From IMG/VR virus record IMGVR_UViG_3300036770_008166, positions 1-64,000 of that record: a DNA stretch of 64,000 bases, one strand, 5' to 3'. The notes under the pieces were generated by a model. The model did no database searches. It was not told the origin of the DNA and saw only the letters and a program-made list of their open reading frames with translations. The stretch comes from a virus. This document shows positions 18,015 to 64,000 of the stretch, one piece after another. How positions within the stretch are numbered: the first letter of the stretch is position 1; each line of letters begins with the position of its first letter. The position numbers and the translations under genes were made by a program.

Positions 18015-18021
18015 CTATGAC

Positions 18022-25416: not shown

Positions 25417-25442
25417 ATTATGATCCATTTACCAACGGTAAA

Positions 25443-25696: not shown

Positions 25697-25722
25697 GATA
25701 GGCCTTAGGGCCTATCTTTTTT
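25697..25722 (+). terminator. Intrinsic terminator of tmRNA
   Basis: GATAGGCC/GGCCTATC stem with a short loop followed by six T (25717-25722). Confidence 0.9.
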
Positions 25723-39221: not shown

Positions 39222-39266
39222 ATCAATATGTACCACAAGGGCGCACACCACGTAATAATACAGCAC

Positions 39267-39295
39267 TTGACCAGAAAATCCCAATATCATATAAT
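39267..39295 (+). promoter_or_regulatory. Sigma-70 promoter for VWA metallopeptidase
   Basis: TTGACC (39267-39272), 17-bp spacer, TATAAT (39290-39295), 22 nt before the start codon. Confidence 0.8.
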
Positions 39296-42525: not shown

Positions 42526-42777
42526 ATGAAGATCACTTTCCATACCTTTACCATGGGCGACGTGGAAGATCCTGACATCTATGCGGCCGAACCTATCTAT
42601 CGATGGCAACAGACTGAGCAGGGAACATGGGCGATGGAGCACGCGCATGATCTCACCTATTACACAGGAGCCGATCCTCACGGTTTTGGATATCTGATCA
42701 GCATCAGAGGCACTGTCAATGACCCCCGACGAGTCACGGAGTATTTCCTAAGATGGCCCAAGCAAGAAAAATCCTAG
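42526..42777 (+). CDS. Conserved T4-like phage protein, 83 aa
   Basis: ITFHTFTMGDVEDPDIYAAEPIYRWQQTEQGTWAMEH and FGYLISIRGTVND: a short beta-rich conserved unknown seen next to thyX-like genes in cyanophage genomes. ATG 42526. Overlaps the SDR gene by 25 nt. Function unknown. Confidence 0.7.
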   Translation: MKITFHTFTMGDVEDPDIYAAEPIYRWQQTEQGTWAMEHAHDLTYYTGADPHGFGYLISIRGTVNDPRRVTEYFLRWPKQEKS

Positions 42778-48937: not shown

Positions 48938-50117
48938 CTTGGTCACCGATTCCATCATCAAGGGTCGTATCTATCCTGCAGGAGCTAAATGGCAGGCACG
49001 ACCTTACACCCAAGCCTGGCGACAGTTTGGCAATCATTGGCCCTATACCACGCCATTGCGCATGCAGGAGTATTGCGAACAACACGGCGTGGCTTTGAAT
49101 ATTTTTTACCCCGAACAGGTATTGCCGTCAAACACCTTTTACGCTGTATGTCTGGGTTTTTTTGATTTCTCCATAGACTATGTGAATCTGCTGCCAAAAA
49201 ACATAATGGCATTGCTCCGATCCAGCCGGATCAAACTGTTGTTCATGTATCATGAAGGGGACAATCCTTCACAAATCAAACAAAGATTAGATGCTCTATG
49301 CCAACTTCATGACCTCCCCAATCGTTGTTATGTGTTTGTGAGCTCTAATTCATCCGCGGCACGTTTACCAGGGTTTGTGCATTTTGATGATTTTGAGCTC
49401 TGGTATTGGCAACGCAATCGTGATCAAGTGGCCACAGAGATACACCGCGGGGCAAGGCCATATGATTTCACCGTACTGTGTCGCGAACACAAATGGTGGA
49501 GGGCCACAGTGATGGCGGATCTCTGGCGACATCATCTACTGGATCGCAGCCTCTGGAGCTACTGCCATACACCAGACGACGATAATGATCATGACTGTCC
49601 TATCGAAATAGATCGCATATCTCAGCTGAGATACCATCGCGCAAAATTTTTAGAGATCTTGCCCAAATTTTGCGACAGTCTGACCGATCATCAAAGGAAC
49701 GATCATTCACAATCTCCTGAATCTTTGTTTTCCCAGTCTTATATGAATGTGATAATTGAGAGTCAGTTTGATGTCGACAACAGCAGCGGAGTTTTCCTTA
49801 CTGAAAAAACATTCAAACCCATCAAACACGGACAACCTTTTTTCATTGCTGGTGCTGTAGGCAGTTTGCAACAACTGCGTGCGTTGGGCTACAGGACGTT
49901 TGATTCCGTGCTAGACAATGCTTATGACGAAGAGCGTGATCATACCCAGCGGTGGTGCCTGCTGCTACAGGCTATCCAGCGTGCCTACAAAATTGGTCTA
50001 GATCGTATCTTTGCTGCCTGCCTGCCAGACATTGAACACAATCAACAGCTATTCTTGCAACACAAAAAAGACAGATTAAATACCGCGATACAACAGATCA
50101 ATGACCAATACTGTTAA
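48930..50117 (+). CDS. TEK-motif glycosyltransferase-like protein (copy 5)
   Basis: A 395-aa member: MYHEGDNPSQIKQR replaces HDQEP, VLCREHKWWRATVMADL is the RxHKWxR strand, and FLTEKTFKPIKHGQPFFIAGAVG with LGYRTFDSVLDNAYDEERD form the C-terminal block. In tandem with copy 4 and overlapping the amidinotransferase start by 17 nt. Confidence 0.62.
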   Translation: MLNLVTDSIIKGRIYPAGAKWQARPYTQAWRQFGNHWPYTTPLRMQEYCEQHGVALNIFYPEQVLPSNTFYAVCLGFFDFSIDYVNLLPKNIMALLRSSRIKLLFMYHEGDNPSQIKQRLDALCQLHDLPNRCYVFVSSNSSAARLPGFVHFDDFELWYWQRNRDQVATEIHRGARPYDFTVLCREHKWWRATVMADLWRHHLLDRSLWSYCHTPDDDNDHDCPIEIDRISQLRYHRAKFLEILPKFCDSLTDHQRNDHSQSPESLFSQSYMNVIIESQFDVDNSSGVFLTEKTFKPIKHGQPFFIAGAVGSLQQLRALGYRTFDSVLDNAYDEERDHTQRWCLLLQAIQRAYKIGLDRIFAACLPDIEHNQQLFLQHKKDRLNTAIQQINDQYC

Positions 50118-51129
50118 TTCCTATACCAGCTGGCAACCGTTGGAGACCGTGATAGTGGGCAGAGCATACAGCCCCGACTACTTTGACTTCATCGATGATG
50201 TCCAGGTCAGGAACCAACTGCAACAGATCTTGACCGAGACCGAAGAAGATCTGGACAATCTCGCACGTGTGATCCAGAGTTTTGGTGCCGAAGTGCTGAG
50301 GCCAGATCTCCCTGACAAAGATCAGTTCGTGTGGTTCCAGACCGAAGGTGGAGGTGCACCGCTACCACCACTGACACCCAGAGACTGGCAGATTACCTTG
50401 GGTGATCGGTTATTGCGTGTATTGGCCATGCCCGAACTGGACAGCATTTGCGACAGATATGGTGATCAGGTAATCAATCCGCACCGTGAGCAATGGGACG
50501 CAGATTGCATCTTGAATGGAGCATCAGCATCTTGTATTGTGCGAGTAGGGCGTGACGTATTTTTTGATAATTCTGATTTCCTACGCCCGGAGCAAACTCA
50601 ATGGATAGTGGACAACGTGCTGGATTCTCGCTATCGAGTCCACGAAGCAGTAACAGATGGTCACGGGGATGCTGTGTTTGCTATACTGAAACCCGGAGTC
50701 ATACTTTCCAGCAAACATGATGTCAATCTAGATCTTGCCAGAGACTTCCCAGGATGGGATGTGTGCAAAATCTGGGATGCCAGCATCTGGGCGGCCATGG
50801 AAGTAGGGAAATTCAAATACGAATCTAACCCCGGAGCATGGTATGTGCAAGGCCAGACACCCACCGCAGAGTTTACCCAGTTTGTTGACACCTATCTCGC
50901 CAAGTGGACTGGCTTTGTGGCAGAAACTGTGTTTGATGTAAACTGCCTGGTGTTAGACGAGAACCATGTGATATTCAGCGCCTATAATCGAGATGTTTTT
51001 GAGTTTTGCAAACGGCATCGCATAGAACCAATCATCTGCGAATTGCGTCACAGTTATTTCTGGGACGGTGGTATCAGTTGTTGCACGCAGGATCTTTGTC
51101 GTCGTGGCGGTCTTGAAACTTATCTATAG
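50101..51129 (+). CDS. Amidinotransferase-family (pentein) enzyme
   Basis: A 342-aa protein like glycine/inosamine amidinotransferases: SWQPLETVIVGRA at the start, ASASCIVRVGRDVFFDN, His near 188 in TDGHGDAVFAIL, and the nucleophile Cys near 326 in GGISCCTQDLCR. These enzymes move an amidino group from arginine to an amine, forming a guanidino compound. In a sugar/glycan cluster with a sugar aminotransferase it may guanidylate an amino-sugar, as in some antibiotics. It ends 10 nt into the convergent DUF2061 gene. Confidence 0.82.
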   Translation: MTNTVNSYTSWQPLETVIVGRAYSPDYFDFIDDVQVRNQLQQILTETEEDLDNLARVIQSFGAEVLRPDLPDKDQFVWFQTEGGGAPLPPLTPRDWQITLGDRLLRVLAMPELDSICDRYGDQVINPHREQWDADCILNGASASCIVRVGRDVFFDNSDFLRPEQTQWIVDNVLDSRYRVHEAVTDGHGDAVFAILKPGVILSSKHDVNLDLARDFPGWDVCKIWDASIWAAMEVGKFKYESNPGAWYVQGQTPTAEFTQFVDTYLAKWTGFVAETVFDVNCLVLDENHVIFSAYNRDVFEFCKRHRIEPIICELRHSYFWDGGISCCTQDLCRRGGLETYL

Positions 51130-51332
51130 GTCTTTCTACCCCATTGAACTAGGTTCCAGATCCGCTCGTGAAAATAATACAAGATTGTATTAGCTATCAA
51201 CTGGATCATAGCAATTGTACCCGCGGTTCCAATGCTGCCGCCAATAATCCACGCTATAACGAACGTAGCAAAACTGCCCGTGAACCGCCAGGTCAAGGCC
51301 TTCGCTATGCTACGACCACGTGTGTCATTCAA
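51120..51332 (-). CDS. DUF2061-type small membrane protein
   Basis: A 70-aa protein: SIAKALTWRFTGSFATFVIAWIIGGSIGTAGTIAMIQLIANTILYYFHERIWNLVQWG, two membrane helices. The KALTWRxxGSxxTxxIxWxxTG pattern and YYxHERxWN end define DUF2061, which often sits beside adenylylsulfate kinase genes. Here it overlaps by 8 nt a gene with an N-terminal P-loop kinase domain, keeping that association. Last gene of the minus operon. Confidence 0.85.
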   Translation of the reverse strand: MNDTRGRSIAKALTWRFTGSFATFVIAWIIGGSIGTAGTIAMIQLIANTILYYFHERIWNLVQWGRKTYR

Positions 51333-52158
51333 GTCCCATCTCTTTTCTTATCTTCGTGGCGGAAATAGCGTGTGTAGCATCGTCAAATCTTTCTTGCTCT
51401 ATCCGGTAACCCACGTCTCTACCGTAAGTTATATTGACGATGTTGGGCACTACCTGGATCTCATATTGTCCTTGATAGAGAGGGTCCAGGTCTCGCCTGA
51501 TAGCGTCTTTTACTGTAGACCACGAAAAAGGATTTGACTGATTCCAGCCCTGGCAATCACGGATCATGATACAGACTTGTCCGGTTTTCGCTATGGCTCG
51601 CTCAAACAATGCCCTGTGGCCGGCATGCCAAGGTTGCCAGCGACCCAACATCTGTACAGTTTCTTTCTTCCAGTCAAACACCGGCCTGCGGCGCCGTTCC
51701 AGGATATGCTCGCCCACGAATTCTGCCCACTTCTCGGCACGCTGTTCCGTGATGCGGAAGTCATACACTTCAGGTGGCACAAACATTCGGTTTGTGTCCA
51801 CAAATCTGCCAGCATCAATGGTATCCATCCATATAGTCCAATCGGCTTTGAAATTGTGACGCATCTCGGCCAAGGGTGCCACGAAGTCCACTACAACAAA
51901 ATCGGCCCAACTTTTGCCTGCCAATTCACGCATGCGATGGCTCTGACGTATGCGACCGTCTTGGCTGAAATCCCAGTCATTGAATCTTTGCCGGACCTCG
52001 TCGGCATTGAACCGTTCCACTGTTGCTCGACTGTCAAATAGACTTTCAGACTCGGAATGGTAAAAATCACTGTGAGCCTCGAGATATTGTTTGAGGTGGT
52101 CCGCAAAATAGGTTTTACCTGATCCTGGCAGACCCATTACTAGTATTTTTTGTGTCAT
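51325..52158 (-). CDS. P-loop kinase fused to HxGH nucleotidyltransferase
   Basis: A 277-aa two-domain protein. Residues ~1-150: kinase-like with Walker A GLPGSGKTYFA (9-19) and FNADEVRQRFNDWDFS, as in adenylylsulfate kinase. Residues ~165-277: nucleotidyltransferase with GRWQPWHAGHRALFERA and late ISATKIRKEM. The order kinase-then-transferase is opposite to NadR. It could phosphorylate and nucleotidylate one small molecule. ATGA overlap with the carbamoyltransferase, 8-nt overlap with DUF2061. Confidence 0.8.
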   Translation of the reverse strand: MTQKILVMGLPGSGKTYFADHLKQYLEAHSDFYHSESESLFDSRATVERFNADEVRQRFNDWDFSQDGRIRQSHRMRELAGKSWADFVVVDFVAPLAEMRHNFKADWTIWMDTIDAGRFVDTNRMFVPPEVYDFRITEQRAEKWAEFVGEHILERRRRPVFDWKKETVQMLGRWQPWHAGHRALFERAIAKTGQVCIMIRDCQGWNQSNPFSWSTVKDAIRRDLDPLYQGQYEIQVVPNIVNITYGRDVGYRIEQERFDDATHAISATKIRKEMGLE

Positions 52159-53639
52159 GAAAATACCTTTACGTTATAAAGTTGTTGAAATTTGTCAGCA
52201 TCCTCGCGATCATTGACCATGGGTTCGCCACGGATGTTGAGGCTGGTGTTCAGCAGCATGGGACAACCAGTGAGCGCATACCAAGCTTCCAGCAGCCTTC
52301 GTATGCCAGATCCATCCTGCGGCACAGTCTGCACACGCGCTGTACCATCCGCATGCGTAATTGCTGGGAATGATCGCGCGTCTCGTACCCGGGCCACGGT
52401 CTGCATGTATCTGCTGGTGGTAAAACCGCGTGGCATGTCAAAATAGTCCGTGACATGCTCTTCCAGGATGGCAGGAGCGAAAGGTCGGAACTTTTGCCTG
52501 CGTTTGATCTCGTTCACTCGATCTTTGATTTCCGGTCCTCTGGGGTCTGCGAGCAGACTGCGATTGCCCAATGCGCGCGGACCAAACTCAGCACGGCCGC
52601 TAGCCACACCAGCAATAGCATGGGCACAGAGATGATCAACAACAGCACGCACAGGATAAGGCCCAGGGATATCATGGCCAAGATAAGCATGGCGCCACCT
52701 AAGTCTTCCGCCATGAGAAAGAGCCGCTGCGCCCAAGCTTGACCCTGCGTCTCCGGGGTTGGGCATGATCCAGATGTTTTCATAGATATCTCCTATTCTT
52801 GCGTTGGCCACACAGTTCAGGGCCACTCCGCCCATGTATACCAGATTATCACTGCTCACAAGGCTGCGGGCCCGTATCATGACATTGCGTATCATCTGTT
52901 CCGTGAGATGTTGTGCAGCCGCGGCCAAATCTTCGGGCTTGTAGAAATCAAGTTCGTACTCGTCAAATCCTATGTGCAGATTGCGTCGCATGGTCAGATC
53001 GATCATGCTTTCCACGCATTGATCTCGCAGCCAGGCAGTGCCGAGACCATTGCCATAGGCTGCCATGCCCATGGTGATGTATTCTTCTTCCATGGGTTTA
53101 AGTCCCACAGCCCGGGTTATGGCGCTGTAAAACAATCCAATGCTGTGCGGATAACCTTGGCGCCACACGCGCCGATAATGTGCGCGACCACGCTCATCAT
53201 ACCAGGCTCGAAATATACTGATGGTGTCCATCTCTCCGATGGCATCTATGACCACTACCGCAGCATCTCGGAACGGCGAAGTTTGGAATCCTGCAGCGGC
53301 ATGGCTGAGATGATGCGGCCACGAGCGTTCACGATTGGCCGCACGCTGATACCAGGCACCTAGATGCCGTCTGATGGCTTGACCGGTGGTCCAAGGACCA
53401 TACTGTCTCTGGCCGCTGCGCCATTGTTGCCAGTTGTGCAACCATGGACGTTCATAGAATGCCACATCGTTTATGTCAAAATCGCAGCATTCACGCAAAA
53501 GGTCTGGATGTATGTTTGGATCATTCTTGATCTTGCTGTATCTCTCTGAATGGCCGGCAAATAGGATATCCCCTCGATCACTCAGCACAGTCACGGCAGC
53601 ATCATGAAATCCTGCGCTGATGCCTAGTATGGTTTTCAT
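52155..53639 (-). CDS. NodU/TobZ-type O-carbamoyltransferase
   Basis: A 494-aa protein: GISAGFHDAAVTVL at the start, HHLSHAAAGFQTSPF, VYMGGVALNCVANARI, MPNPGDAGSSLGAA, and EFGPRALGNRSLLADPR late. These are the family's Fe/ATP site and the carbamoyl-adenylate transferase part. It uses carbamoyl phosphate and ATP to carbamoylate a hydroxyl on a sugar or natural product. Somewhat shorter than NodU (~570 aa) but with both ends present. Confidence 0.88.
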   Translation of the reverse strand: MKTILGISAGFHDAAVTVLSDRGDILFAGHSERYSKIKNDPNIHPDLLRECCDFDINDVAFYERPWLHNWQQWRSGQRQYGPWTTGQAIRRHLGAWYQRAANRERSWPHHLSHAAAGFQTSPFRDAAVVVIDAIGEMDTISIFRAWYDERGRAHYRRVWRQGYPHSIGLFYSAITRAVGLKPMEEEYITMGMAAYGNGLGTAWLRDQCVESMIDLTMRRNLHIGFDEYELDFYKPEDLAAAAQHLTEQMIRNVMIRARSLVSSDNLVYMGGVALNCVANARIGDIYENIWIMPNPGDAGSSLGAAALSHGGRLRWRHAYLGHDIPGPYPVRAVVDHLCAHAIAGVASGRAEFGPRALGNRSLLADPRGPEIKDRVNEIKRRQKFRPFAPAILEEHVTDYFDMPRGFTTSRYMQTVARVRDARSFPAITHADGTARVQTVPQDGSGIRRLLEAWYALTGCPMLLNTSLNIRGEPMVNDREDADKFQQLYNVKVFS

Positions 53640-53766
53640 GTTGCAATCTTTTCATGATATGCTGTCTTTCTTGATCGCTATAACTGGTCCACGATGCGAT
53701 TTCTTGCAAGGTCTTTCCTCCACATCCGAGGCAACGATTGTTGGCATTTGAAAGAGCTTGATACAC
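53602..53766 (-). CDS. DUF1289-like small Cys protein, 54 aa
   Basis: A short frame starting at GTG 53766. RCLGCGGKTLQEIASWTSYSDQERQHIMKRL is very close to the DUF1289 pattern (C-x-GC-G-RT-x2-EI-x2-W-x3-SD-x-ER). The first Cys pair of full DUF1289 proteins is lacking, and no RBS is visible for the GTG, so it may be read by coupling from the 33-aa gene before it. Its end overlaps the carbamoyltransferase start by 38 nt. Confidence 0.6.
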   Translation of the reverse strand: MYQALSNANNRCLGCGGKTLQEIASWTSYSDQERQHIMKRLQHENHTRHQRRIS

Positions 53767-53773
53767 GACGTGA

Positions 53774-53875
53774 TCATTTATAGATGAATGGATCTCGTTT
53801 GCGCAATTCCTTCAGTTTTTTGCGATACCGTATTTCAAGACGTATACGATCTATGATTTTTTTGATCCAATTCAT
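53774..53875 (-). CDS. Very basic 33-aa peptide
   Basis: ATG 53875 has AGGAGACAGAA upstream and overlaps the previous stop (ATGA). The peptide is a single charged helix (NWIKKIIDRIRLEIRYRKKL). Good RBS and coupling on both sides support it as a gene missed by length cut-offs. Function unknown. Confidence 0.5.
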   Translation of the reverse strand: MNWIKKIIDRIRLEIRYRKKLKELRKRDPFIYK

Positions 53876-54957
53876 TTCTGTCTCCTCAGGGCCATTTCCT
53901 GTATTTGCCGATGCTGATAATCTCGATCACTCCAGTGATACGGATACTCGTTTGACGCATCATTGGTACGGATAGCCAACACGTCTGTGTAGTTAGTCAA
54001 CATTTGCACTATGGTTGCATGATCCTGGGTACCAAATGACGCTACAAGATCCACCTGGCCGATCTTGGGATGACCAATGGTGAGTTCTGGATCACCTGGA
54101 TCAAAACCATTGTGACTCAGCCAAGATCTAAAGTTTTGCAGCTGGGTTTGGCGCCACTCAAATTTTTGTGGATTCCGGCCCCATTCGATATCAAAGTCAC
54201 CCGCGGCTTCGGTCTGTCCACGCATGGTGGTACTGACCAATTCAGCAACGTTCCGTCCCTCATCACAGAAGACTTCCCAATGGTGTTTTCCAACAGCTTT
54301 GTTGACGCCAACATATACTGCTCCAGTATCGCGATTTAGGGTGCCAATACCGAACAGTTCAAAATCCTGTGAGTCAAGCGCAAATCTGGGTGCTTCTAGC
54401 CAACACATCAGTTGGCTAGGGCATAACCAATCTGGAGCTTCGCGCTGTTTTCGATAGCTCAGTGCCCAGGATTCAAATTCGTGACACAACAAATTCAACT
54501 GTCTGATATGCCATCTGGTGTCATCGTTGGCACGTAGATAAAATTTGCTGGGATTGCCACTGATACCTTGTAGATCTTCGAAATATCGATGCAACCAGTT
54601 AAGACGATCTTGTATGACGTTTCTACCGCAGGCACGTCCGTACCTGGGATCATCACTTATGGTGTTGGCCAGTAAAAATTCATCATCAATGCGATACCCT
54701 ATGTCAGCTTGGTTGATGGCCTGGATGCTCTGATTGATCCGGTCACAGATGAACGCACCATTTCTATCACTGTCTGGGAACCCCATGAAGCAAAAATTTT
54801 TTTCAAGATGGAAATTATCTCGCAACAAATGATTCAAAGCCTGCAACCATTTGCCGGCCAGAGAATTATCTGCAACATCTATGAAAATCGACAGTGGCAC
54901 CGACTGCCTATTACGCAGCACCATTTCGATTCTATCTAATGTTTTGCCACCATCCAT
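53872..54957 (-). CDS. Hypothetical protein of radical SAM operon, 361 aa
   Basis: ATG 54957 with AGGA 6 nt upstream, 26 nt inside the upstream radical SAM gene. Segments such as LSIFIDVADNSLAGKWLQALNHLL, KFYLRANDDTRWHIRQLNLLCHEFESW and VYVGVNKAVGKHHWEVFCDEGR suggest a mixed alpha/beta protein. No motif recognised. Its place directly after a twitch radical SAM gene suggests it is the substrate-handling or partner protein. Confidence 0.6.
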   Translation of the reverse strand: MDGGKTLDRIEMVLRNRQSVPLSIFIDVADNSLAGKWLQALNHLLRDNFHLEKNFCFMGFPDSDRNGAFICDRINQSIQAINQADIGYRIDDEFLLANTISDDPRYGRACGRNVIQDRLNWLHRYFEDLQGISGNPSKFYLRANDDTRWHIRQLNLLCHEFESWALSYRKQREAPDWLCPSQLMCWLEAPRFALDSQDFELFGIGTLNRDTGAVYVGVNKAVGKHHWEVFCDEGRNVAELVSTTMRGQTEAAGDFDIEWGRNPQKFEWRQTQLQNFRSWLSHNGFDPGDPELTIGHPKIGQVDLVASFGTQDHATIVQMLTNYTDVLAIRTNDASNEYPYHWSDRDYQHRQIQEMALRRQK

Positions 54958-56227
54958 ATATGTCCTGATCTTGTTGTAAAATATCTTGCATGGTATATCG
55001 GTCATCGCGGATCGACTCTAGCCGCAAAATCCGGGCTTTGCCTCGACGCAATGCCTGCTCATAATCATGGGGCCATTGTTCTGCGAAGGTAGGTCGTGTT
55101 TTCAATTGCTGTAGGGTATCACGCAGGGCACCCGTGACATAGGCCGACAACGAATCTACTTTTTGATCCAGCACGGTCCTGGGCAAGGCCAACGGACTCA
55201 AGATGATGTCGGGTGAAAAACTGAATATGACCTTGCTTAACACATCAACACCAAACCGCTGAGCCAGTGCCTGTACGTTCCTGACTTCGAACAGACCTGG
55301 CAAAGTCAGGGTAAAATCGATCCTCATCTGCCGGGGGGATTTTTGTTGGTCCACGCCTCGTTGGAAATTCTCACACCAGTGCGCAAAATCAAGCCCTGTG
55401 CGTATATATTCACCTGTTGCTCCGGTTCCGTCGAGGCTGGCACAGATCTGCCAGTCCCGTAAATGCGAGAGAATATCCTGGTAAAGATCCAGGCCGCGAT
55501 AGCGCACACGGCTAAGATTAGTGTTGTAACGAGCATAAACATTGGCACCATCCCCCAGTTCTATTATGCGGCGCATGTACCGCCAGTGCTGTTCATACAT
55601 CAAGGGTTCGCCGCCTACCCAGTACACTTCTTCCACACGATGCTGTTCTACTGCTTCAGCAAATTCTTGTTCGACCTGTGTGTCTTGGAATTTGCTGATT
55701 TGGTCTCGCACTTCGGGCATCATCCAGGCATTCTTAGGATTGCTCCAGTCGATCATGTCATGCTGACGTTGTTCACTCTCCCAAGCGCTGCTCAACATGT
55801 CCCCGCACATGCGACATTTGAAATTACAAAGATTTGAGAAACGATAGTCCCAACTCACTGGCAACATGGTTGTATAACCATCTGGTTCGGTAGCTGCCAT
55901 GGCATCATGATATTTGTGGTCGAACAGACGATTAAAATACGTGCGATATACATCGGTATTGAGCAGTTTGTTGTTGCACACATCGCATTCGGGCAATGTT
56001 TCACCTGCCATCATGCGACGACGCACACTGCGCATATGATCGCTGTTCCAATGTTGCACGAGAGTCATGGGGTGATATCGACCCGTGCCAGATTCAGTAT
56101 CAATGTATTGACGGAAATTCTGCGCTGGCTCACGACTGGCACAGCACATTCTACGCTCGGTCTGGGGGCTGAGATAGGTATGTGTCCAGGGTGCCATGCA
56201 CAGAGTTTCGGGTCTACTGGCTGTCAA
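54932..56227 (-). CDS. N-terminal-twitch radical SAM protein (1)
   Basis: About 431 aa. The N-terminal auxiliary-cluster domain has Cys in LCMAPWTHTY, a CC pair in RMCCASRE, and CDVC. The radical SAM core has SNLCNFKCRMC near 131-141 and a GGEP strand (YWVGGEPLM). The order (SPASM/twitch-like first, core second) is reversed compared with usual SPASM enzymes. The start is uncertain: TTG 56227 keeps the first Cys; the next ATG would lose it. Overlaps both neighbours. Confidence 0.78.
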   Translation of the reverse strand: MTASRPETLCMAPWTHTYLSPQTERRMCCASREPAQNFRQYIDTESGTGRYHPMTLVQHWNSDHMRSVRRRMMAGETLPECDVCNNKLLNTDVYRTYFNRLFDHKYHDAMAATEPDGYTTMLPVSWDYRFSNLCNFKCRMCGDMLSSAWESEQRQHDMIDWSNPKNAWMMPEVRDQISKFQDTQVEQEFAEAVEQHRVEEVYWVGGEPLMYEQHWRYMRRIIELGDGANVYARYNTNLSRVRYRGLDLYQDILSHLRDWQICASLDGTGATGEYIRTGLDFAHWCENFQRGVDQQKSPRQMRIDFTLTLPGLFEVRNVQALAQRFGVDVLSKVIFSFSPDIILSPLALPRTVLDQKVDSLSAYVTGALRDTLQQLKTRPTFAEQWPHDYEQALRRGKARILRLESIRDDRYTMQDILQQDQDIYGWWQNIR

Positions 56228-57434
56228 AGTCGTATCCGTATATCTTGGCCAGCTCGGGCTCAACTAGGGCCATGTTCTGATTCCGTTTGCGATCTAGATC
56301 GCGTATCTTCATGCGCAGCATGAAGCCATCGGTACTGGCACCGGCCTGCATGAAGTCTATCACACGATCAAATTCTGCTTTGAACTGTTCCGGTACAGCA
56401 GACGATCTAATTTTGTGTTCGATAAGTTTTTTAGCATGATCAGGTAATGTAGCGATACTGAAATACCATGCATCATGCATCATGTTCCAGTGAACGAAAT
56501 CAAACTGTTGCTGCTGTGCCCATTCGGCAAACTCCGGCAAATAAAAAACATTGAACACATTGATGGTGCAGCACGCCTGCAATGTAATGTTGTTTGATCG
56601 GGCCTTGAGTTCCTGAAACCGGTGTATGTTGTCGAGCACCACGGACCACTCAGCATTGGTGCGTTGATATTCAAATCGCTTGCCGAGATCGTCAAGGCTG
56701 AATGCTATTTCTACCAGGCGGAAATGCGGCCAGATCTCTAGAGCTTGCTGGGGGAAATGTGTGCCATTGGTGTTGTAATGTATCTCGATGTTGCCGGCAA
56801 CACCTTGGTCCACCAGGCTTTTCAACATGTCGAAATGTTCGGATATCATGAAAGGCTCGCCACCGGTAAATTCGATGTATTTTATGTCCTTGGATATTCG
56901 TGCAATCTCGGGCCAAAAATCTGAATTCTCGCGCGGCCAGGCCCCGGCTCTGAGCATCTGATAAGCGAAGGATTTTTTCCTATCGGCATCTGGCGGCATA
57001 TCATTGATTTCTTCTGCGGCAATCTGGCTGCTGCTCCATGAACCACAGATGCGGCATTTGAGATTGCAGATATTGCCCAGTTTAAGATCAAGAAACATCA
57101 AGGGCTTGGCCTCGGTGCTCCACTCTTGATCAGTGATCATGTGCTTGAGTCTGTCCAGAGTGTGCATGCGCTTGCTGGTACGACCCGAGCGTTCTTCGTT
57201 CCAGCATTTTCGACAGGTCTGGGGGCGTTGGCCGGCCAAGAACTGCGATCTAAGATTTTGCATGTAGGCACTGTTGCGGATACGATCAAATTGAGTATTC
57301 TGCAGTTGGAACTTGTTGCCATCTTCGTCGGTGATTTCGTCATCGGTCAAACAGCAAGGCCTCACTGTGCCGATGGGGCTGGCCTCTAGGCTGACCCAGG
57401 GCAGAACACAGAATTTATCGTTGGGCAGTTTCAT
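56214..57434 (-). CDS. N-terminal-twitch radical SAM protein (2)
   Basis: 406 aa. Auxiliary Cys at 9, 27/28, 74 and 77 (FCVLPW, PCCLT, CRKCW); core motif GNICNLKCRIC with Cys 123, 127, 130; YIEFTGGEPF follows. YNTNGTHFP and AFSLDDLG are typical beta-strand ends of the core. ATG overlaps the upstream stop. Substrate unknown; family members act on peptides or glycan-linked groups. Confidence 0.82.
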   Translation of the reverse strand: MKLPNDKFCVLPWVSLEASPIGTVRPCCLTDDEITDEDGNKFQLQNTQFDRIRNSAYMQNLRSQFLAGQRPQTCRKCWNEERSGRTSKRMHTLDRLKHMITDQEWSTEAKPLMFLDLKLGNICNLKCRICGSWSSSQIAAEEINDMPPDADRKKSFAYQMLRAGAWPRENSDFWPEIARISKDIKYIEFTGGEPFMISEHFDMLKSLVDQGVAGNIEIHYNTNGTHFPQQALEIWPHFRLVEIAFSLDDLGKRFEYQRTNAEWSVVLDNIHRFQELKARSNNITLQACCTINVFNVFYLPEFAEWAQQQQFDFVHWNMMHDAWYFSIATLPDHAKKLIEHKIRSSAVPEQFKAEFDRVIDFMQAGASTDGFMLRMKIRDLDRKRNQNMALVEPELAKIYGYDFDSQ

Positions 57435-58690
57435 AACAAGGCCTCTAGCTCCGGTACAGCATCACGCCAGTTTTCACGGCGTAGATTATCTAATTGATTG
57501 GTCTTTTTCCAAAATGTTTCCAGCAACCTGGTGTTATCTGTGGCCATGAGAAAATTGATCGAGGATTCGAACCCCACAGTGGCACGAGTAAGTCGGTCCT
57601 GAGGTCTCAGCCATTCCAGATGCTCTTCAAATTTGACACGTAATCTCTGTTTGTATTTCATGGGTGCGATATCTATGCGATAATGCACCGGATCTTGCAA
57701 AAGATTCACATTGAGATCTTGTGCCCGTATCAATCCACGTTCTGTCCAAGCTCGATGAAAGTCCGGCAGGTGCCAAGCATTCATGATTGACAGCGTAGGA
57801 GAGATATAAAAATCTACGTTGGGGCACATATCCAGCATCCTGCGACGATTATCCTCTACCACTACCCAGTCCGTACCCTTGCGGATGTATTCGGCTCTTG
57901 GTCCCATGGCGTCCAGACTGGCTCCAACTGCCACGCTGTGGAATTTCCGCCAGTAATCAAACACCGAACGCTCTTTGAGTTTCGTCTGTGTGAAGTTGGT
58001 ATTGTAGATCAAGCGTACATCAAATCGTTCTCTGCGTTCCAGTTCTTCCAGGATGCGATAGTGCTCGTCCATCATGAGAGGTTCGCCGCCAGCGAAATAG
58101 ATCTGTTCCACATAGTCAATGTGGGGCAACAACTGTTCCCACATGTCGGTCTCTGTCTGTCCGGCATAGTTCAAGGGAACATTGTTGCCGCGCCATTCTG
58201 GTCCGGCCAATCGTGCTTGATCCTGATACCACGAACTGGAAAAAATATGACCACAACTGCGACAACGTAGATTGCAGAGATTACTGAAGCGTATGTCCCA
58301 ATAGGTCATCTCGAACGGAGTGGTAGACAATTTCTTGATGTGATGTCCATGATGCTTGTTGGCACTGCGTCGTCCGCTGAAGAAACCCGACTGCTCTTGT
58401 TCGTAGCATCTGGTGCAGGCAGCATTAGGCGTTTCTGATAGCATGTCCTGCCGCAACTTTTTCATGGCGTCGCCATGCCATATCTCCTCCAATGTGTTTT
58501 CTTTGCAGTGTCCTACTGGGTATGCCATTTCGGCGTGGCAACAAGGATAGGCTTCCCCAGTGGGATAGGCATGAAGGTGTATCCAGGGATAGATACAGAA
58601 TGTTTTGGATTTTTTTAGCAGGAACTCTTCGCGTTCGGTGAGTTCTATGGGTTTCACTAAATCACTGCTGTTGTAATTATAAGCTATCAT
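57431..58690 (-). CDS. N-terminal-twitch radical SAM protein (3)
   Basis: 419 aa. The N-terminal domain is the clearest twitch of the set: FCIYPWIHLHAYPTGEAYPCC (split over 31-51), NTLEEIWHGDAMKKLRQDML, then ACTRCYEQE (92, 95). Core SNLCNLRCRSC has Cys 139, 143, 146; QIYFAGGEPLMM follows. Overlaps both neighbouring radical SAM genes. Confidence 0.84.
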   Translation of the reverse strand: MIAYNYNSSDLVKPIELTEREEFLLKKSKTFCIYPWIHLHAYPTGEAYPCCHAEMAYPVGHCKENTLEEIWHGDAMKKLRQDMLSETPNAACTRCYEQEQSGFFSGRRSANKHHGHHIKKLSTTPFEMTYWDIRFSNLCNLRCRSCGHIFSSSWYQDQARLAGPEWRGNNVPLNYAGQTETDMWEQLLPHIDYVEQIYFAGGEPLMMDEHYRILEELERRERFDVRLIYNTNFTQTKLKERSVFDYWRKFHSVAVGASLDAMGPRAEYIRKGTDWVVVEDNRRRMLDMCPNVDFYISPTLSIMNAWHLPDFHRAWTERGLIRAQDLNVNLLQDPVHYRIDIAPMKYKQRLRVKFEEHLEWLRPQDRLTRATVGFESSINFLMATDNTRLLETFWKKTNQLDNLRRENWRDAVPELEALL

Positions 58691-60017
58691 ACCATTCTTT
58701 CAGTCGGGGAAACGTAGACGTGAAATCTTTGTCTCTGCGATTGTCATACTGCTGATAGAACTCCCTGAAATCATTATGCAGTTTCGGCATTTCAAACGCG
58801 TCCGAATGTGGAGTTTTCACAGTGTCAAGATAGTCTATCAAACGTTGCACATGATTGATCTCGTGCTCCTGTAATACAGGATCATCGCGATTGAGCTCCA
58901 GCCAGGTTATGAGATTGATACGATGACGATCTCGTATCTCTCTTGGCAGCACCAACGGGCTCTGGAAGCTGGGAAAACGCAGGATGTTCAAGGTAAAGTT
59001 CACCCGATTCCGGCCGTAGATTTTTTTCAACAGCAACAGGTGGTCGAGATATTCGGGGAGGCTTTCCAAACACAGCGCATTGATGGTACACATGCTGTGT
59101 ACTGCCCGCACAGGTGAATCCTCTGCCATGAGGATGTTCTGCACATTGTGATTCCAGGTCTGCCAATCCAGACCATCTCGGATGTATTCGGCCTGATCAC
59201 CTACAGCTTCATTAGAGGTGTAGATATCTAGTTCGATTCCCTGGCAGCTGTCCAGGAGCCTCTGCACTGTGCTCCAATCCAGGCTGAGATTACTATTGAT
59301 AGCAAGACGCGTCTTGCTTCGGCCAGGATTCGCGCGGAACCAGTCCAGGAGCTGCCAGGTGTAGCCAGACATGAGAGGTTCCCCACCGGTGATACGCAGT
59401 TCCTCCAGCGTGCGATGAAGATCGGTTTCCCACCACGCAAAGAAAGCATCCACGTACGGATTAGGTTCTCCAAAACGAAAAAGTTGAGCACTATCATGAC
59501 TGTGAGTGAAATGGTTTCGGCCATCAGAAATGAGATTCTGGTAGGGTCCACGGTTCCTGATGTCCTTAACCCATGTGCTAGAAAAAGCAGGATTACAGTA
59601 AGAGCAAGCGAGCTGGCAAGTGCGATCAAAGCTGATCTCCAGGGTCTTGAGATCGATATCCTGATCTGCTGGCGTGCCAGCAGCCTCGCGTAGGTCATGT
59701 ATTTCATAGATCTTTGATTTATATATGCGATCGCTCACAGCATCGCGGCCCATGTCTTCGATCTTCCAGCAGTATTCGCAACCAGCAGGTCTACGCCCGG
59801 CCTGCATGTCCGCTCGATCCTGTTTCTTTTGTGGTGTATTGTGCAGCAGTCGAGGATTGGTTTTCACTGCTTCGAGGTCCACCTGGTGTGCCGGTGGATG
59901 ATGGCAGCTGGTGGTCTGACCAGAACCCAGCCAGATAGTGGCATTGTACCATTTGGCTGCGCAGAAACTGGCGGAGATAGGATCCAGCACCTGCTGGCGG
60001 AATTCAATGTCTTGCAT
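58677..60017 (-). CDS. N-terminal-twitch radical SAM protein (4)
   Basis: 446 aa. Belongs with protein 5 to a second subgroup: FCAAKWYN, SCHHPPAH and CEYCWKIED in the N-terminal part (Cys 19, 38, 80, 83). Core RTCQLACSYC has Cys 134, 138, 141 and ELRITGGEPLMS follows. A conserved C-terminal HNDFREFYQQYDNRRDKDF also occurs in protein 5. Preceded by a TEK protein with 14-nt overlap. Confidence 0.82.
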   Translation of the reverse strand: MQDIEFRQQVLDPISASFCAAKWYNATIWLGSGQTTSCHHPPAHQVDLEAVKTNPRLLHNTPQKKQDRADMQAGRRPAGCEYCWKIEDMGRDAVSDRIYKSKIYEIHDLREAAGTPADQDIDLKTLEISFDRTCQLACSYCNPAFSSTWVKDIRNRGPYQNLISDGRNHFTHSHDSAQLFRFGEPNPYVDAFFAWWETDLHRTLEELRITGGEPLMSGYTWQLLDWFRANPGRSKTRLAINSNLSLDWSTVQRLLDSCQGIELDIYTSNEAVGDQAEYIRDGLDWQTWNHNVQNILMAEDSPVRAVHSMCTINALCLESLPEYLDHLLLLKKIYGRNRVNFTLNILRFPSFQSPLVLPREIRDRHRINLITWLELNRDDPVLQEHEINHVQRLIDYLDTVKTPHSDAFEMPKLHNDFREFYQQYDNRRDKDFTSTFPRLKEWYDSL

Positions 60018-61113
60018 CTAGGAAATCAATGATTGTTTGGGGTAAAATTGCGCGCTCTCTTTGATTGTGATAGCGCAAGTGCTGTTGGTTATATTTACAG
60101 GTTTCCTCAGTAGCGTCCAAAAAACTGGCAGCACCATTGGACACGATGTCTTTGATCACTTTCACAATGTCTTGCATACGCTGCTCTGGATCTGTGACAG
60201 AATCGAAACTTTCGTCAATCAGATGTCCAAATGTGCGAAATCCTGCACGGTGCAGATCGCGATAATATCCGGCATTGGCCGCTACCACAAAGGGATGCGC
60301 CATAATCATGGGTTTCCAGATTTTTTCGGTGCGAAATGTGTAAGGATAATCGTAAATGGTTTCCGTGACTACACTGAAATAGGTATCGGTATAAGCCTGC
60401 GGATTGATTATGGCATCACCCCATGTGTTATTGAACAGTTGGTGCTTGACAAATCCACCATCTAGTAGATTTGCAGTGAGATTAGGGCGAGCTCGTTCTA
60501 TTTCGTATTCAGGCGGGAGCAAACGTATTGGTTCGAGTTTTGTAGTTTGCAATGTGCTGGTAAATTGCATCTCTACACGACTGCCAAGATTGGTCCACAG
60601 CGCTCGCTGCAAGAGTCCCTGATCTCGTAGCACATCGATGAGATATTTCCTGTGTGGGCGCAAACGACCATTAAGAAACAGGAAATCATAAGGTCGGCCA
60701 TGGCCGTGACGAACATCCTGTTGTGCAGCCGCGAGATTTTCTGTGTACTCACAAATATTGCTGAAATAACAATCGGTTTTGATGTAGTCAAATTCGCATG
60801 CCATGTCTCCCGATGTTAACAGCAAGATCTGCCCCGCACGCACCAGATTTTCTATCCTTAGTCGCTGGAGTTGCAAAAGCACAGTTTCGCTTCCTTCGGC
60901 AGGATTACAAAACACGATGCGTCCTGGATATCGCTCTGCGAGCTCACACACTCGATACCAATTTTCTTTGATTTGTACGCGACCTAGTATGGTCACGCTA
61001 TCAGCATCGAATTCCAGTTCAGAAAACCGCCAAAATTCAACATCGGCGTAGTGTTTGAGTAAATCGTAGACTTCACTCCATTGATCTAACACAATGCGAT
61101 GATTACCTAGCAT
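60004..61113 (-). CDS. TEK-motif glycosyltransferase-like protein (copy 6)
   Basis: A 369-aa member: FLFLNGRLRPHRKYLIDVL (an N-G-R-x3-HR strand), ETIYDYPYTFRTEKIWKPMIMAHPFVVAANAG and LHRAGFRTFGHLIDESFDSV. This is the copy that most resembles GT10-type donor sites. ATG 61113 overlaps the upstream radical SAM gene. It is sandwiched between radical SAM proteins 4 and 5. Confidence 0.65.
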   Translation of the reverse strand: MLGNHRIVLDQWSEVYDLLKHYADVEFWRFSELEFDADSVTILGRVQIKENWYRVCELAERYPGRIVFCNPAEGSETVLLQLQRLRIENLVRAGQILLLTSGDMACEFDYIKTDCYFSNICEYTENLAAAQQDVRHGHGRPYDFLFLNGRLRPHRKYLIDVLRDQGLLQRALWTNLGSRVEMQFTSTLQTTKLEPIRLLPPEYEIERARPNLTANLLDGGFVKHQLFNNTWGDAIINPQAYTDTYFSVVTETIYDYPYTFRTEKIWKPMIMAHPFVVAANAGYYRDLHRAGFRTFGHLIDESFDSVTDPEQRMQDIVKVIKDIVSNGAASFLDATEETCKYNQQHLRYHNQRERAILPQTIIDFLDARH

Positions 61114-62506
61114 GATACTCACATTGTTGCCACCAGTCGCGCATTTCTGGAAACGTGGCAAGAAAATCTGTATTACGACGCCTATCGTGCTCAGAGAAAA
61201 ATCTGTAGAAATCGGCTCGGCACCGTTTGAGATATTGTGCGTCTAGTTTTGCTCCATCTCTCATCCAGGCAATGTCTCGTTCTAATCTTTGTATCTCGAA
61301 ATCTTTGAATCCTTGAAACGGGGCGTCAGGCCGTTCATGTTGACGTATCATCCAAGCCCAAAGGTGGTCCAGCCGATCTGCATAACTTTCTGGCAAGATC
61401 TGTAGGCTCTGCCATTCGGGCTTCCTCAGTACCGGAGTATCAAACCACACACGTTGATATGTTTGATTATAGGTGCGGCGGAGTCCTAGTATACCGGCAA
61501 ACAGTTTGTCTAGGCTGGTCACAGATAGATTGTTCATGGTCACGATAAAGGTCAGGCTATTTCTGTATGGTATCTCATTGAGAAACTGATTCACTCGATC
61601 CCATAAAAGTTCAAAATCCAAACCGTGCCGCATATACTCGGCTTGCAGGGCCCATCCGTCGATGCTGACATACTGCATAAAATGTTCAAGAATCGGTTGG
61701 TCACACAATCGCTTCACGTAGTCTTTGTAGCGTTGCCACAATTTCTCTTCCACAGAGAAATTGCTGGTCACACAGAGATGCAGATCAAGTTTAGGATTGG
61801 CCAGCACATAATCAAACACACGGTAGGTATTGCGATCCATGAGTGGTTCTCCGCCTGTCATGCGAAAGTGTGTTAGTTCAGGATACAGGTCGGGCCACCA
61901 ATCCCAGAAAGCTTCGACCCAGGGATTATGTTCACGAGCAGGAATAGGACGGCGGTCGCCTAGAAAATGATCTGGATGATTGTGCGGGGTGCTGGTAGGA
62001 TAAGCACCTAGGCGTTGAATTTCGTCTTGCCAGGTGGATGAAAATTGTGGACTACAATAGCTGCACCGGAGATTGCAAACATGATTGAAGTTGACTTCTA
62101 CATAGCTGGGTGTCACATCATTCTCATCTCCGGTGAAAGCAATGATCCGATCAAAATCTCGACTCGCCCAGGGTTCTCCTGATCTGTAATGACGATCACT
62201 CATCTGTCCAAGATCTTCCATGTTCCAACAGTATTGGCATTCAGCAGGACGCTGGCCCTCTAGCATCATCTTTCGCTGTAGTTTCTTGTGTGTGGTATTG
62301 TGCAAAGCGCTGGGACGACGCCCGATTTCGGTCACGGGTATACGGTGCAGAGGCGGATGATAGCAGGAATTGTTAAGACCGGTTGGGAGATGGAGACTGA
62401 CCTGCTTCCATTTGGCTAAACATAACGCAGATCCTAGTTTCTCTTTCATTACATGTGCAGCAGATAGAAAATCACTGGATTTTGTTGGCGAAGCAAGATC
62501 AGACAT
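61103..62506 (-). CDS. N-terminal-twitch radical SAM protein (5)
   Basis: 467 aa. N-terminal Cys at 29, 48, 90, 93 (LCLAKW, SCYHPPLHR, CQYCWNMED) and core NHVCNLRCSYC (144, 148, 151); HFRMTGGEPLMD follows. Same subgroup as protein 4, separated from it by TEK copy 6, so radical SAM/TEK pairs seem to have been duplicated together. Overlaps its upstream TEK gene by 8 nt. Confidence 0.83.
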   Translation of the reverse strand: MSDLASPTKSSDFLSAAHVMKEKLGSALCLAKWKQVSLHLPTGLNNSCYHPPLHRIPVTEIGRRPSALHNTTHKKLQRKMMLEGQRPAECQYCWNMEDLGQMSDRHYRSGEPWASRDFDRIIAFTGDENDVTPSYVEVNFNHVCNLRCSYCSPQFSSTWQDEIQRLGAYPTSTPHNHPDHFLGDRRPIPAREHNPWVEAFWDWWPDLYPELTHFRMTGGEPLMDRNTYRVFDYVLANPKLDLHLCVTSNFSVEEKLWQRYKDYVKRLCDQPILEHFMQYVSIDGWALQAEYMRHGLDFELLWDRVNQFLNEIPYRNSLTFIVTMNNLSVTSLDKLFAGILGLRRTYNQTYQRVWFDTPVLRKPEWQSLQILPESYADRLDHLWAWMIRQHERPDAPFQGFKDFEIQRLERDIAWMRDGAKLDAQYLKRCRADFYRFFSEHDRRRNTDFLATFPEMRDWWQQCEYHAR

Positions 62507-63680
62507 AGGCTTTACCCATCTCTTGATTTATTAAAGCATTCCATGTTCGGTAGATTTGGTTAGGTATTTGTTTGCATATTTCATCCATTTTCAGACAATT
62601 GTTTGCAAATCTGTCTTTTTTTGCTTGCCACAATTTGTCAAGATCTGTGGAACCATCCAGCAAGTGCAAGTTATCATCCAACGCCTTCAATAACCTAACG
62701 CCCGGATCCTTGATTCGATCGTACTCATGATTGATCACATCATCAAACGTATCTATTCCGAGATCCCGCAAATATTGCACCGTCCCTGTGCAGTTAATAT
62801 GGATTAAAAAATTACATCCATAAACGGCCTGCAATTCTTTTTCCGTGACAAACAACCCCGGTTCACCAAACAGCGTGCCTGTCACTATTTCTAATCTGGT
62901 TTGCTGTCGGATCGGCGCTAAATGTTTTTCTCCGTTGATTCTAACGGCATCGGTCAATCGAATGTTGTCGAAGATTGCAGAATCCCCAAACGGTGGAAGT
63001 CGTGACCTGTTGAACGAATTTTGAATCAAACGCTGATACCCTTGATCTAGATATTCATAGACATCTCGGTCCCATGTGTATGTGAGAAAATTATATATGT
63101 GTTCGAATTGTTGGCATCTTTTTACGAAGACATCGCTGGCGGTAATAAAAGCCATACGGTCCAGTTGTCTGGCTAACAAATATGATAAAACTCCTACACG
63201 ATGCCACCAGATGTCGTTGTTGCACATCACATAGGAATATTGATTTGGCATTTTGTCGCAGGCGTACATAGGTACGGACTTTCTTGCAAGGCCATTCCAC
63301 CAATAAGGGCCTGCTACTACCTTGAGATTATTGACATCAACCATGGCCTGCGTGATGAGATGTTCCGTAAGCAGCAAAAAAGTTTTATCCGGATTCGCGC
63401 TACAGATCTTTTCAAGTTCCAAAAGACCGAGAGGTTTTGAATCCTGATACCAATTATATTCACGATCGATACACAATGCATCACTGGTGATAAGGATCAC
63501 GATTGGTTTGCAGAAAGCCTGTCTGCACAAATTCGGCCAGACATCTGTGCCTGGACCGTGATGCACAGCATAACACTCAGCTTTTGTCCAGTCTACCCCT
63601 GCCAGCAATAAGTCAATGTCCAATGAGTCCTCGATCGTGGACATCACCGCACTATCAATATAAGTGCAATCTATTTTCAT
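62499..63680 (-). CDS. TEK-motif glycosyltransferase-like protein (copy 7)
   Basis: A 393-aa divergent member: GEPGLFVTEKELQAVYGCNFLIHINCTG, LRDLGIDTFDDVINHEYDRIKD, and Trp-rich middle part (NNDIWWHRVGVL). The gene is more AT-rich than those downstream. One base separates it from the preceding TEK copy. Confidence 0.6.
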   Translation of the reverse strand: MKIDCTYIDSAVMSTIEDSLDIDLLLAGVDWTKAECYAVHHGPGTDVWPNLCRQAFCKPIVILITSDALCIDREYNWYQDSKPLGLLELEKICSANPDKTFLLLTEHLITQAMVDVNNLKVVAGPYWWNGLARKSVPMYACDKMPNQYSYVMCNNDIWWHRVGVLSYLLARQLDRMAFITASDVFVKRCQQFEHIYNFLTYTWDRDVYEYLDQGYQRLIQNSFNRSRLPPFGDSAIFDNIRLTDAVRINGEKHLAPIRQQTRLEIVTGTLFGEPGLFVTEKELQAVYGCNFLIHINCTGTVQYLRDLGIDTFDDVINHEYDRIKDPGVRLLKALDDNLHLLDGSTDLDKLWQAKKDRFANNCLKMDEICKQIPNQIYRTWNALINQEMGKAYV

Positions 63681-63681
63681 A

Positions 63682-64000
63682 TCAACAAAAAATCTCTCTT
63701 AGTTTTTCATACCTCAATTGCATAAAAATCTCATAATTATGCTCCAGCACAGATTGCATATCATTTAAAATGACACGACATTTTTCATGATTCCAATCTG
63801 CAATTTCATCCAAGAGCTCAACTATCATCTTGATCCTGGTTTGATCCGTCTGTCCATCATAATCTTCAGACCACCACCGACCAAAAGTCTGGAATCCCAA
63901 TTTTCGTAAATGATACAAATAACTACCTGTACCTAGCACTATGAAAGGACGACGCGCAATGATGCAGCGCCAGAGTTTTTCTGTGACTAAAAAATTATTG
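63682..64000 (-). CDS. TEK-motif glycosyltransferase-like protein (copy 8), partial
   Basis: The 3' part of a gene cut by the window edge (106 residues visible). FLVTEKLWRCIIARRPFIVLGTGSYLYHLRKLGFQTFGRWWSEDYDG contains all C-terminal landmarks of the family. It shows that the minus-strand operon continues beyond the window. Confidence 0.65.
   Translation of the reverse strand, partial: NNFLVTEKLWRCIIARRPFIVLGTGSYLYHLRKLGFQTFGRWWSEDYDGQTDQTRIKMIVELLDEIADWNHEKCRVILNDMQSVLEHNYEIFMQLRYEKLREIFC

Follow-up and report, generated by a model that had tools for sequence, protein, structure and literature searches.

T4-like pelagimyophages and cyanomyophages carry a host recognition cluster, a hypervariable region after the tail-fiber genes that contains glycosyltransferases and in which radical SAM (rSAM) cassettes have been noted (PMC7029224). 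Dense rSAM genes in T4-like phages are already known. The T4-like environmental genome TARA_ERS488813_N000010, described in 2017, holds 12 of them, and the accessible part of that report treats them as Fe-S related genes only, without analysis of family, order, synteny or neighbors (PMC5332604). The window analyzed here is a 64,000-nucleotide stretch, positions 1 to 64,000 of the 115-kb virus record IMGVR_UViG_3300036770_008166, which derives from a large, T4-like lake-water phage. Like TARA_ERS488813_N000010, this is an aquatic T4-like phage dense in rSAM genes, and like the host recognition cluster, its rSAM island follows the tail fibers. It is unlike that cluster (PMC7029224) in its invariant ordered five-rSAM cassette, its own promoter, its freshwater origin, a beta-type tmRNA in the phage genome, the protein U and an amidinotransferase. 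An earlier note on this DNA called such a density of rSAM chemistry extraordinary in a phage, which is too strong given the 12-rSAM genome and the finding that uncultured aquatic T4-like phages commonly carry clusters of this kind.

Aminocyclitol antibiotic toolkits use enzymes of the StrB, StrS and TobZ types, which are an amidinotransferase, a DegT aminotransferase and a carbamoyltransferase, respectively. The twitch rSAM enzyme BtrN performs the two-electron oxidation of an aminocyclitol (PMC9012708). The island resembles these toolkits as a set of enzyme classes (twitch rSAM, with BtrN-type oxidase as the toolkit counterpart, amidinotransferase, DegT aminotransferase and carbamoyltransferase), but its twitch domains are N-terminal instead of C-terminal and transferases and tail-fiber genes lie alongside. 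No cyclitol synthase was found with the island. All five rSAM enzymes belong to the NCBIfam N-twitch model NF033640 (N_Twi_rSAM), which is silent on substrate, on the R1–R5 subgroups and on their co-inheritance. We found no substrate, product or assigned reaction for any N-twitch enzyme in the literature, and no earlier account there of the five-enzyme cassette in its fixed order, of the corresponding bacterial locus or of the peptide–carbamoyltransferase pair.

The island has its own sigma70-like promoter site in a T4-like genome

T4 core genes matched in the record (baseplate wedge, late sigma factor and SbcCD-type gp46/gp47) place the virus among the T4-like phages, and its freshwater hosts are probably Betaproteobacteria. 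T4-type late promoter sites of the TATAAATA type lie upstream of structural genes. The true start of the island is position 70618 of the record, directly after Ser/Thr-rich tail-fiber genes, and has its own sigma70-like, apparently leaderless promoter. Of 64 distinct loci, 63 have a predicted −10 box 5–9 nt upstream of the island start codon, and this conserved promoter-like site sets the island apart from the tail-fiber genes.

The earlier note described one minus-strand run from the window edge at 64000 down to 51120 with overlaps at nearly every junction. The strand is correct and most junctions do overlap, by 4–50 nt; the window edge is not the start, and extension past 64 kb traced the run to 70618. 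The five rSAM proteins with an N-terminal auxiliary-cluster domain were confirmed as minus-strand open reading frames within 54932–62506 that score 286–392 bits against NF033640, and the 361-aa protein, the carbamoyltransferase, the kinase–nucleotidyltransferase fusion and the DUF2061 protein are present as first described. The three TEK proteins reported for the run are there as well, and the whole record has nine. One large gap, 53640–53871, is occupied by a 33-aa peptide gene that the first reading missed and by a DUF1289 gene. No tandem repeats were found in 50000–64000.

Five N-twitch radical SAM enzymes are inherited as a set

Matches to NF033640 were judged against its curated cutoff of 170 bits, a whole-protein score that no protein of 14 control genomes exceeded. 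R1 (54932–56263), R2 (56214–57434), R3 (57431–58690), R4 (58677–60017) and R5 (61103–62506) scored 286, 347, 392, 297 and 307 bits, respectively, and a sixth N-twitch copy elsewhere in the 115-kb record scored 246–247 bits. The R1 start must be the TTG at 56263, which retains the first twitch cysteine (CMAPW). An alignment of the six paralogs was too divergent for scanning viral contigs, and single proteins were used as queries; R3 was found in 212 IMG/VR stretches and R4 in at least 599. The CX3CX2C rSAM motif is present in all 678 orthologs examined and the N-terminal twitch cysteines in nearly all (128 of 134 for R1). Motifs are intact in 133 of 133 orthologs for both R2 and R5, and every R1–R5 ortholog has the GGEP motif. 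The pN/pS values of 0.26–0.31 for the R1–R5 orthologs indicate purifying selection. Conservation of four twitch cysteines points to an auxiliary cluster that is fully ligated, as it is in BtrN.

The recurring gene order is R5-(TEK)-R4-R3-R2-R1-U-peptide-carbamoyltransferase. All five enzymes are held by 198 fetched loci (129 distinct), and the order R5 R4 R3 R2 R1 is fixed in 214 of 217 loci carrying all five. In the tree, R1–R5 form five old, co-inherited clades, each of which unites phages from freshwater and from the sea with a chromosomal locus of Bacteriovoracaceae, which indicates that the five enzymes travel as a set. Comparison across phage metagenomes, proposed in the earlier note, shows a cassette that recurs in the same order in many viruses, with intact motifs and purifying selection instead of decay in relatives. 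The dedicated pathway that the note proposed is well supported by the invariant order, the intact motifs, purifying selection and five-enzyme co-inheritance.

A small peptide accompanies the carbamoyltransferase

The carbamoyltransferase (52155–53639, minus strand; PHROG 1601) has both the N- and C-terminal domains of the NodU/TobZ type (PF02543 and PF16861). The peptide gene (53774–53875, minus strand) encodes 33 residues ending in KELRKRDPFIYK (DPFIYK), and its start codon overlaps the stop codon of U. In 117 of 118 regions it lies upstream of the carbamoyltransferase, and it also occurs in 26 of 28 rSAM-free phage carbamoyltransferase loci, which argues that it is the partner of the carbamoyltransferase. 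A tblastn search of isolate phages with the peptide gave no match, a query this short being uninformative. The DUF1289 protein (53602–53766, minus strand; PF06945, E = 1.2e-9) occurs in few loci.

Transferase-like and sugar-type genes surround the cassette

U (53872–54957, minus strand), the 361-aa protein conserved in the cluster, was found in 328 IMG/VR stretches. Its model (pLDDT 90) matched only uncharacterized phage proteins in BFVD and no solved fold, and its sequence profile found no solved relative; BFVD suggested a U in Agrobacterium phage Atu_ph07, where there was no sequence match. The g308 profile likewise found no solved relative. Domain comparison relates part of a 1010-aa protein (44812–47844, minus strand) to g308.

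The TEK protein T1 (60004–61113, minus strand) is a candidate GT-B-fold transferase. Its AlphaFold model (pLDDT 93) has best Foldseek matches that are mostly GT-B enzymes, including a GT10 fucosyltransferase, and are weak (E = 0.02–0.12, TM about 0.35–0.45). No glycosyltransferase family was among those listed for 40 TEK members at E ≤ 1, and a PDB profile search returned neither a glycosyltransferase nor a solved relative, so the glycosyltransferase-like label given earlier has a weak fold match behind it and no sequence link. T2 (62499–63680, minus strand) occupies a variable slot, is present in few loci and was matched by profiles from other TEK groups. Further TEK paralogs are T3 (63682–64000, continuing to about 64722 of the record, minus strand), T4 (47843–48937, plus strand), T5 (48930–50117, plus strand) and a paralog outside the cluster (38052–39290, minus strand).

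The plus-strand amidinotransferase gene (50101–51129) ends against the cluster. Its product is of the arginine:glycine type; its profile matches the AGAT, SxtG, HsvA and StrB structures (E = 8e-26 to AGAT), and the catalytic residues Asp152, His188, Asp190 and Cys327 are invariant, as in the AGAT/StrB group. Also on the plus strand are a DegT/DnrJ/StrS sugar aminotransferase (43739–44845; PF01041, E = 8.7e-60), whose nearest NCBIfam model is PseC, matched below its cutoff, and an NAD-dependent sugar epimerase/dehydratase (42753–43742; PF01370, E = 2.6e-43). The DUF2061 membrane protein (51120–51332, minus strand; PF09834) and the kinase–nucleotidyltransferase fusion (51325–52158, minus strand; PHROG 10255, with an NMN adenylyltransferase-like C terminus) look accessory.

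In marine relatives this block likewise lies between the tail-fiber genes and carbamoyltransferase-DegT-epimerase genes. In Bacteriovoracales chromosomes, N-twitch rSAM genes lie beside relatives of g308, the amidinotransferase, the carbamoyltransferase, a transketolase and the epimerase. In the named isolate records of Vibrio phages K566 and K567 (OZ196521 and OZ196593), N-twitch rSAM genes are likewise interspersed with GT8/GT4 genes, but at ~24% identity, in a separate clade and with other partners. The cultured K566 encodes four N-twitch-type rSAMs, two above the NF033640 cutoff, interleaved with two GT8 genes and one GT4-like gene. The single-cell virus record AG-345-D19 gave no rSAM match, though relatives of the amidinotransferase and carbamoyltransferase are present.

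A candidate glycan pathway and its alternatives

A glycan pathway is favored because of the amidinotransferase, the DegT aminotransferase, the epimerase, the nine GT-B-like TEK paralogs and the Vibrio phage with GT8/GT4 genes. We give an even chance that the region is a glycan-modification island, lying beside the tail-fiber genes in a T4-like phage that infects freshwater bacteria. Where the earlier note had a modified sugar, glycan or peptide as the product, a glycan is the best-supported predicted class. The epimerase and DegT enzyme would supply an amino sugar, to which the amidinotransferase would add a guanidino group and the carbamoyltransferase a carbamoyl group; R1–R5 would act on successive positions, with one C-H activation per enzyme. 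The unit would be assembled by g308, g254/g261 and the TEK proteins and delivered to one of two destinations that we rate about equal, the virion tail fibers or, with early expression and superinfection exclusion, the host envelope. A surface glycan, if that is the product, would mean that common freshwater viruses use a decoration built by radical chemistry and unusual in its elaboration. Some evidence points away from sugars as substrates. In the bacterial UBA6144 locus, neither a glycosyltransferase nor U nor a carbamoyltransferase lies next to the full five-set, and a Paenibacillus copy adjoins acyl carrier protein and ketosynthase genes, so the enzymes may not act on sugars; many SPASM-domain rSAMs act on peptides.

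The C terminus of HypE enters the active site of HypF. A bolder proposal, which we regard as doubtful, is that the five N-twitch enzymes form a radical assembly line for a surface unit of a new chemical class, common to aquatic phages and predatory Bacteriovoracales, and that the phage carbamoyltransferase works with a peptide of its own, as carrier or substrate, which inserts an invariant DPFIYK C terminus into the active site in the manner of HypE. The fixed-order set of five, its defined partners, its bacterial counterpart and its distant relatives in isolated Vibrio phages make the N-twitch reaction findable. Apart from this, the peptide–carbamoyltransferase pair offers a protein partnership that is simple and can be tested.

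It is possible, although we lean against it, that early in infection the island alters the O-antigen, capsule or lipid A of the host envelope to block competing phages, without decorating the virion, a sub-case of the glycan island. Its own sigma70-like promoter, apart from the late promoter sites, is consistent with this, as is the PagP annotation, for lipid A acylation, of a gene that adjoins the K566 cluster, and the glycosyltransferases of the pelagimyophage cluster were so interpreted by their authors (PMC7029224). Against these stand a tail-fiber-adjacent position conserved from freshwater to marine phages and the lack of an evident membrane flippase or polymerase in the block, and the expression timing is predicted only.

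Rather unlikely is a role for the five enzymes as RiPP-like maturases, which would introduce cross-links, epimers or oxidations into a tail-fiber or other virion protein or a small peptide, for the transferases then to decorate. SPASM/twitch enzymes are often RiPP maturases (PMC9012708), the R3 profile weakly matches the protein-modifying anaerobic sulfatase-maturating enzyme, the adjoining tail-fiber genes are Ser/Thr-rich, and the bacterial R4/R5 loci adjoin a gene for a small protein that probably bears a signal peptide and is weakly similar to TPR proteins. However, no RiPP precursor linked to the rSAM genes was found, nor any other conserved small ORF in the one gap examined closely, and the sugar-type neighbors in K566 and Bacteriovoracales speak for the glycan reading. 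The DPFIYK peptide was rejected as an rSAM precursor, as a C-terminus scan and a carbamoyltransferase-baited scan both tie it to the carbamoyltransferase.

Phages do hypermodify DNA, and the kinase–nucleotidyltransferase fusion at the end of the run could belong to a pathway for a modified base or sugar on phage DNA. This outcome, raised in the earlier note, is very improbable and found no support: homologs of the fusion turned up in only 14 of the 240 fetched loci, the block adjoins tail-fiber genes and not replication genes, and there was no match to any nucleotide-modification family. Recent tandem amplification of one rSAM gene for dosage instead of five steps, which the five tandem members of one family might suggest, can be dismissed, since the others share only 23–28% identity with R3 and in the tree each copy sits with marine and bacterial counterparts of its own kind.

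A conserved cassette of five N-twitch radical SAM enzymes

The five N-twitch radical SAM (rSAM) enzymes R1–R5 belong to an island of radical SAM and sugar-type enzyme genes next to the tail-fibre genes. A profile search with NCBIfam NF033640 ('twitch domain-containing radical SAM protein') scores all five at 286–392 bits against a cut-off of 170 bits, a threshold that no match exceeds in any of 14 control genomes. The five-enzyme finding of the earlier note is confirmed. The genes lie on the minus strand at 54932–56263 (R1), 56214–57434 (R2), 57431–58690 (R3), 58677–60017 (R4) and 61103–62506 (R5), and identity to R3 within the set is 23–28%. The full virus record has 115,246 bases, of which the window is bases 1–64000; the remainder (L008–L010) was read too and carries a sixth N-twitch rSAM gene (record positions 104277–105479, plus strand) between SbcD- and SbcC-like (gp47/gp46-type) recombination nuclease genes.

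IMG/VR was searched with R3, R4 and the 361-residue protein U as baits, which matched 212, at least 599 and 328 stretches, respectively. The commonest order among the 240 loci kept is R5-T1-R4-R3-R2-R1-U-carbamoyltransferase, where T1 is a 'TEK' protein (60004–61113, minus strand). Because loci were selected by bait, the counts measure co-occurrence and not prevalence: all five enzymes occur together in 198 loci (129 distinct by R3), some loci carry one to three extra rSAM copies, and where each of the five has a best hit (217 loci), R5 R4 R3 R2 R1 follow one another in this order on a single strand in 214. The CX3CX2C and GGEP motifs are retained in all rSAM orthologs examined, and the rSAM genes have pN/pS of 0.26–0.31 with synonymous sites near saturation; T1 (0.48) and the tail-fibre protein TF1 (0.43) are both higher. 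The cluster thus recurs in related genomes and is free of decay there, as the earlier proposal of a dedicated pathway demands. A tblastn search of 50,697 phage records with R3 returned only Vibrio phages K566 and K567.

A small peptide pairs with the carbamoyltransferase

The earlier gene list, whose remaining named genes were all found present, overlooked a 33-residue peptide encoded between U and the carbamoyltransferase (53774–53875, minus strand). Its ATG overlaps the U stop and its product ends KELRKRDPFIYK. The peptide is present in 117/118 distinct carbamoyltransferase upstream regions, and DPFIY is invariant in 94/94 distinct peptide sequences, a pattern that the search itself required in DPFIY-like form. 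An independent scan with KRDPFIYK-stop codons found 80 loci, 67 with a same-strand downstream carbamoyltransferase; 50 of these 67 are without rSAM in the stretch examined. A third scan, for which an rSAM-free carbamoyltransferase served as bait, recovered 28 loci; 26 have the peptide no more than 700 nt upstream, and none has rSAM. Across loci (the window; L309–L388, L432–L459) the peptide has 33–50 residues and an invariant C-terminal DPFIYK, rSAM genes present or absent. These three scans tie the peptide to the carbamoyltransferase, as whose partner it is identified from sequence; its pairing in rSAM-free loci rules out an rSAM precursor. A DUF1289 protein lies between the two in some loci.

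Genome type and the predicted island promoter

PHROG matches in the record to baseplate wedge, late sigma factor and SbcCD-type proteins, together with TATAAATA-type sites 12–34 nt upstream of several structural genes, mark the phage as T4-like. A tmRNA of the permuted betaproteobacterial type (25395–25719, plus strand; Rfam E 3.6e-53) suggests, short of proof, a betaproteobacterial host. Several tRNAs lie alongside it at 24.9–29.1 kb.

In record coordinates, the last tail-fibre-like gene stops at 70653 and the island starts at 70618. The gap before g101, the first island gene (gap at 70619–70652), contains TTGACC-17-TATAAT, ~6 bases before the g101 ATG. Among 64 distinct relatives, 63 have a −10-like box 5–9 nt upstream of this ATG, 59 a −35-like hexamer, and 53 an intrinsic-terminator-like hairpin directly upstream of the promoter; no such hairpin was seen in the gap of this record. 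When the box test was run on individual genes, it was positive for 62 of 64 g101 genes and for none or few copies of most other genes tested, the exception being the TEK paralog gene T4 (47843–48937, plus strand; 19/49). The island looks like a separate transcription unit, and the box-to-ATG spacing predicts a leaderless, host-sigma-type g101 transcript.

Bacterial counterparts

R1–R5 each form their own clade in a quick 96-protein tree whose deep branches are weak. In each clade freshwater phages are joined first by marine phages, whose contigs had been binned into unrelated MAGs (L258–L261), and then by a copy from a single Bacteriovoracaceae contig (L263) outside both. R1–R5 appear to be old, co-inherited enzymes. 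L263 carries eight N-twitch rSAM genes (locus 6040–18036) and looks chromosomal because an Obg GTPase gene is nearby. In its order, Bacteriovoracales, 63/129 genomes encode proteins that pass the NF033640 cut-off, as many as 12 in a single genome, and the rSAM neighbours include relatives of the 308-residue island protein g308, amidinotransferase, carbamoyltransferase, transketolase and epimerase. In several of these genomes (L263, L289–L308), N-twitch genes adjoin both the gene for a g308-type protein and that for another rSAM of non-twitch type. Paenibacillus (L265, 9551–16559) has a lone N-twitch rSAM gene within an acyl carrier protein/ketosynthase cluster.

Partner enzymes and the proposed pathway

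The island amidinotransferase matches arginine:glycine amidinotransferase by profile (E 8e-26) with invariant catalytic residues, the carbamoyltransferase has both Pfam domains, and a DegT aminotransferase and an epimerase lie farther on, on the opposite strand. The record encodes nine TEK paralogs. The T1 AlphaFold model is confident (pLDDT 93); GT-B enzymes, GT10 fucosyltransferase and trehalose-phosphate synthase among them, make up most of its top PDB hits, but only at E 0.02–0.12, and sequence-profile searches gave no match. The U model is also confident (pLDDT 90) and matched no solved structure, its good matches being uncharacterised phage proteins only. Among the most conserved island proteins is g308 (record positions 67535–68461, minus strand), which has a DGDN motif, matched no known family and is related to part of a 1010-residue protein (44812–47844).

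The enzyme classes of the island match the ones used to make amino sugars with guanidino and carbamoyl groups. From its anatomy, conservation and partner enzymes, the island most likely encodes a sugar-type pathway. The strongest outside support comes from the named isolate Vibrio phage K566 (L276, 8965–17752), in which two GT8 genes and one GT4-like gene alternate with four rSAM genes of N-twitch type; of the four, two pass the NF033640 cut-off and two fall just below it. A PagP-annotated gene adjoins. The twitch rSAM enzyme BtrN oxidises an aminocyclitol and has a four-cysteine auxiliary cluster (PMC9012708); R1–R5 likewise have four conserved twitch cysteines, which suggests a cluster of the BtrN kind. 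The promoter and PagP lean toward a product on the host envelope, and the tail-fibre neighbourhood leans toward one on the virion.

Pelagimyophage host-recognition clusters contain glycosyltransferases and radical SAM cassettes (PMC7029224), both gene types are enriched in Tasman Sea phages (PMC7150976), and 12 radical SAM genes were reported earlier in one T4-like genome (PMC5332604). The open-access papers reached describe neither a fixed cassette of five N-twitch enzymes, nor a counterpart of it in Bacteriovoracales, nor the pairing of the DPFIYK peptide with the carbamoyltransferase, which does not prove that no such report exists. The cultured Pelagibacter phage Mosig EXVC030M (L431) has one cluster of MoaA-like genes, at least one of which matches radical SAM, with nitroreductases, an ArnB-like aminotransferase and a carbamoyltransferase.
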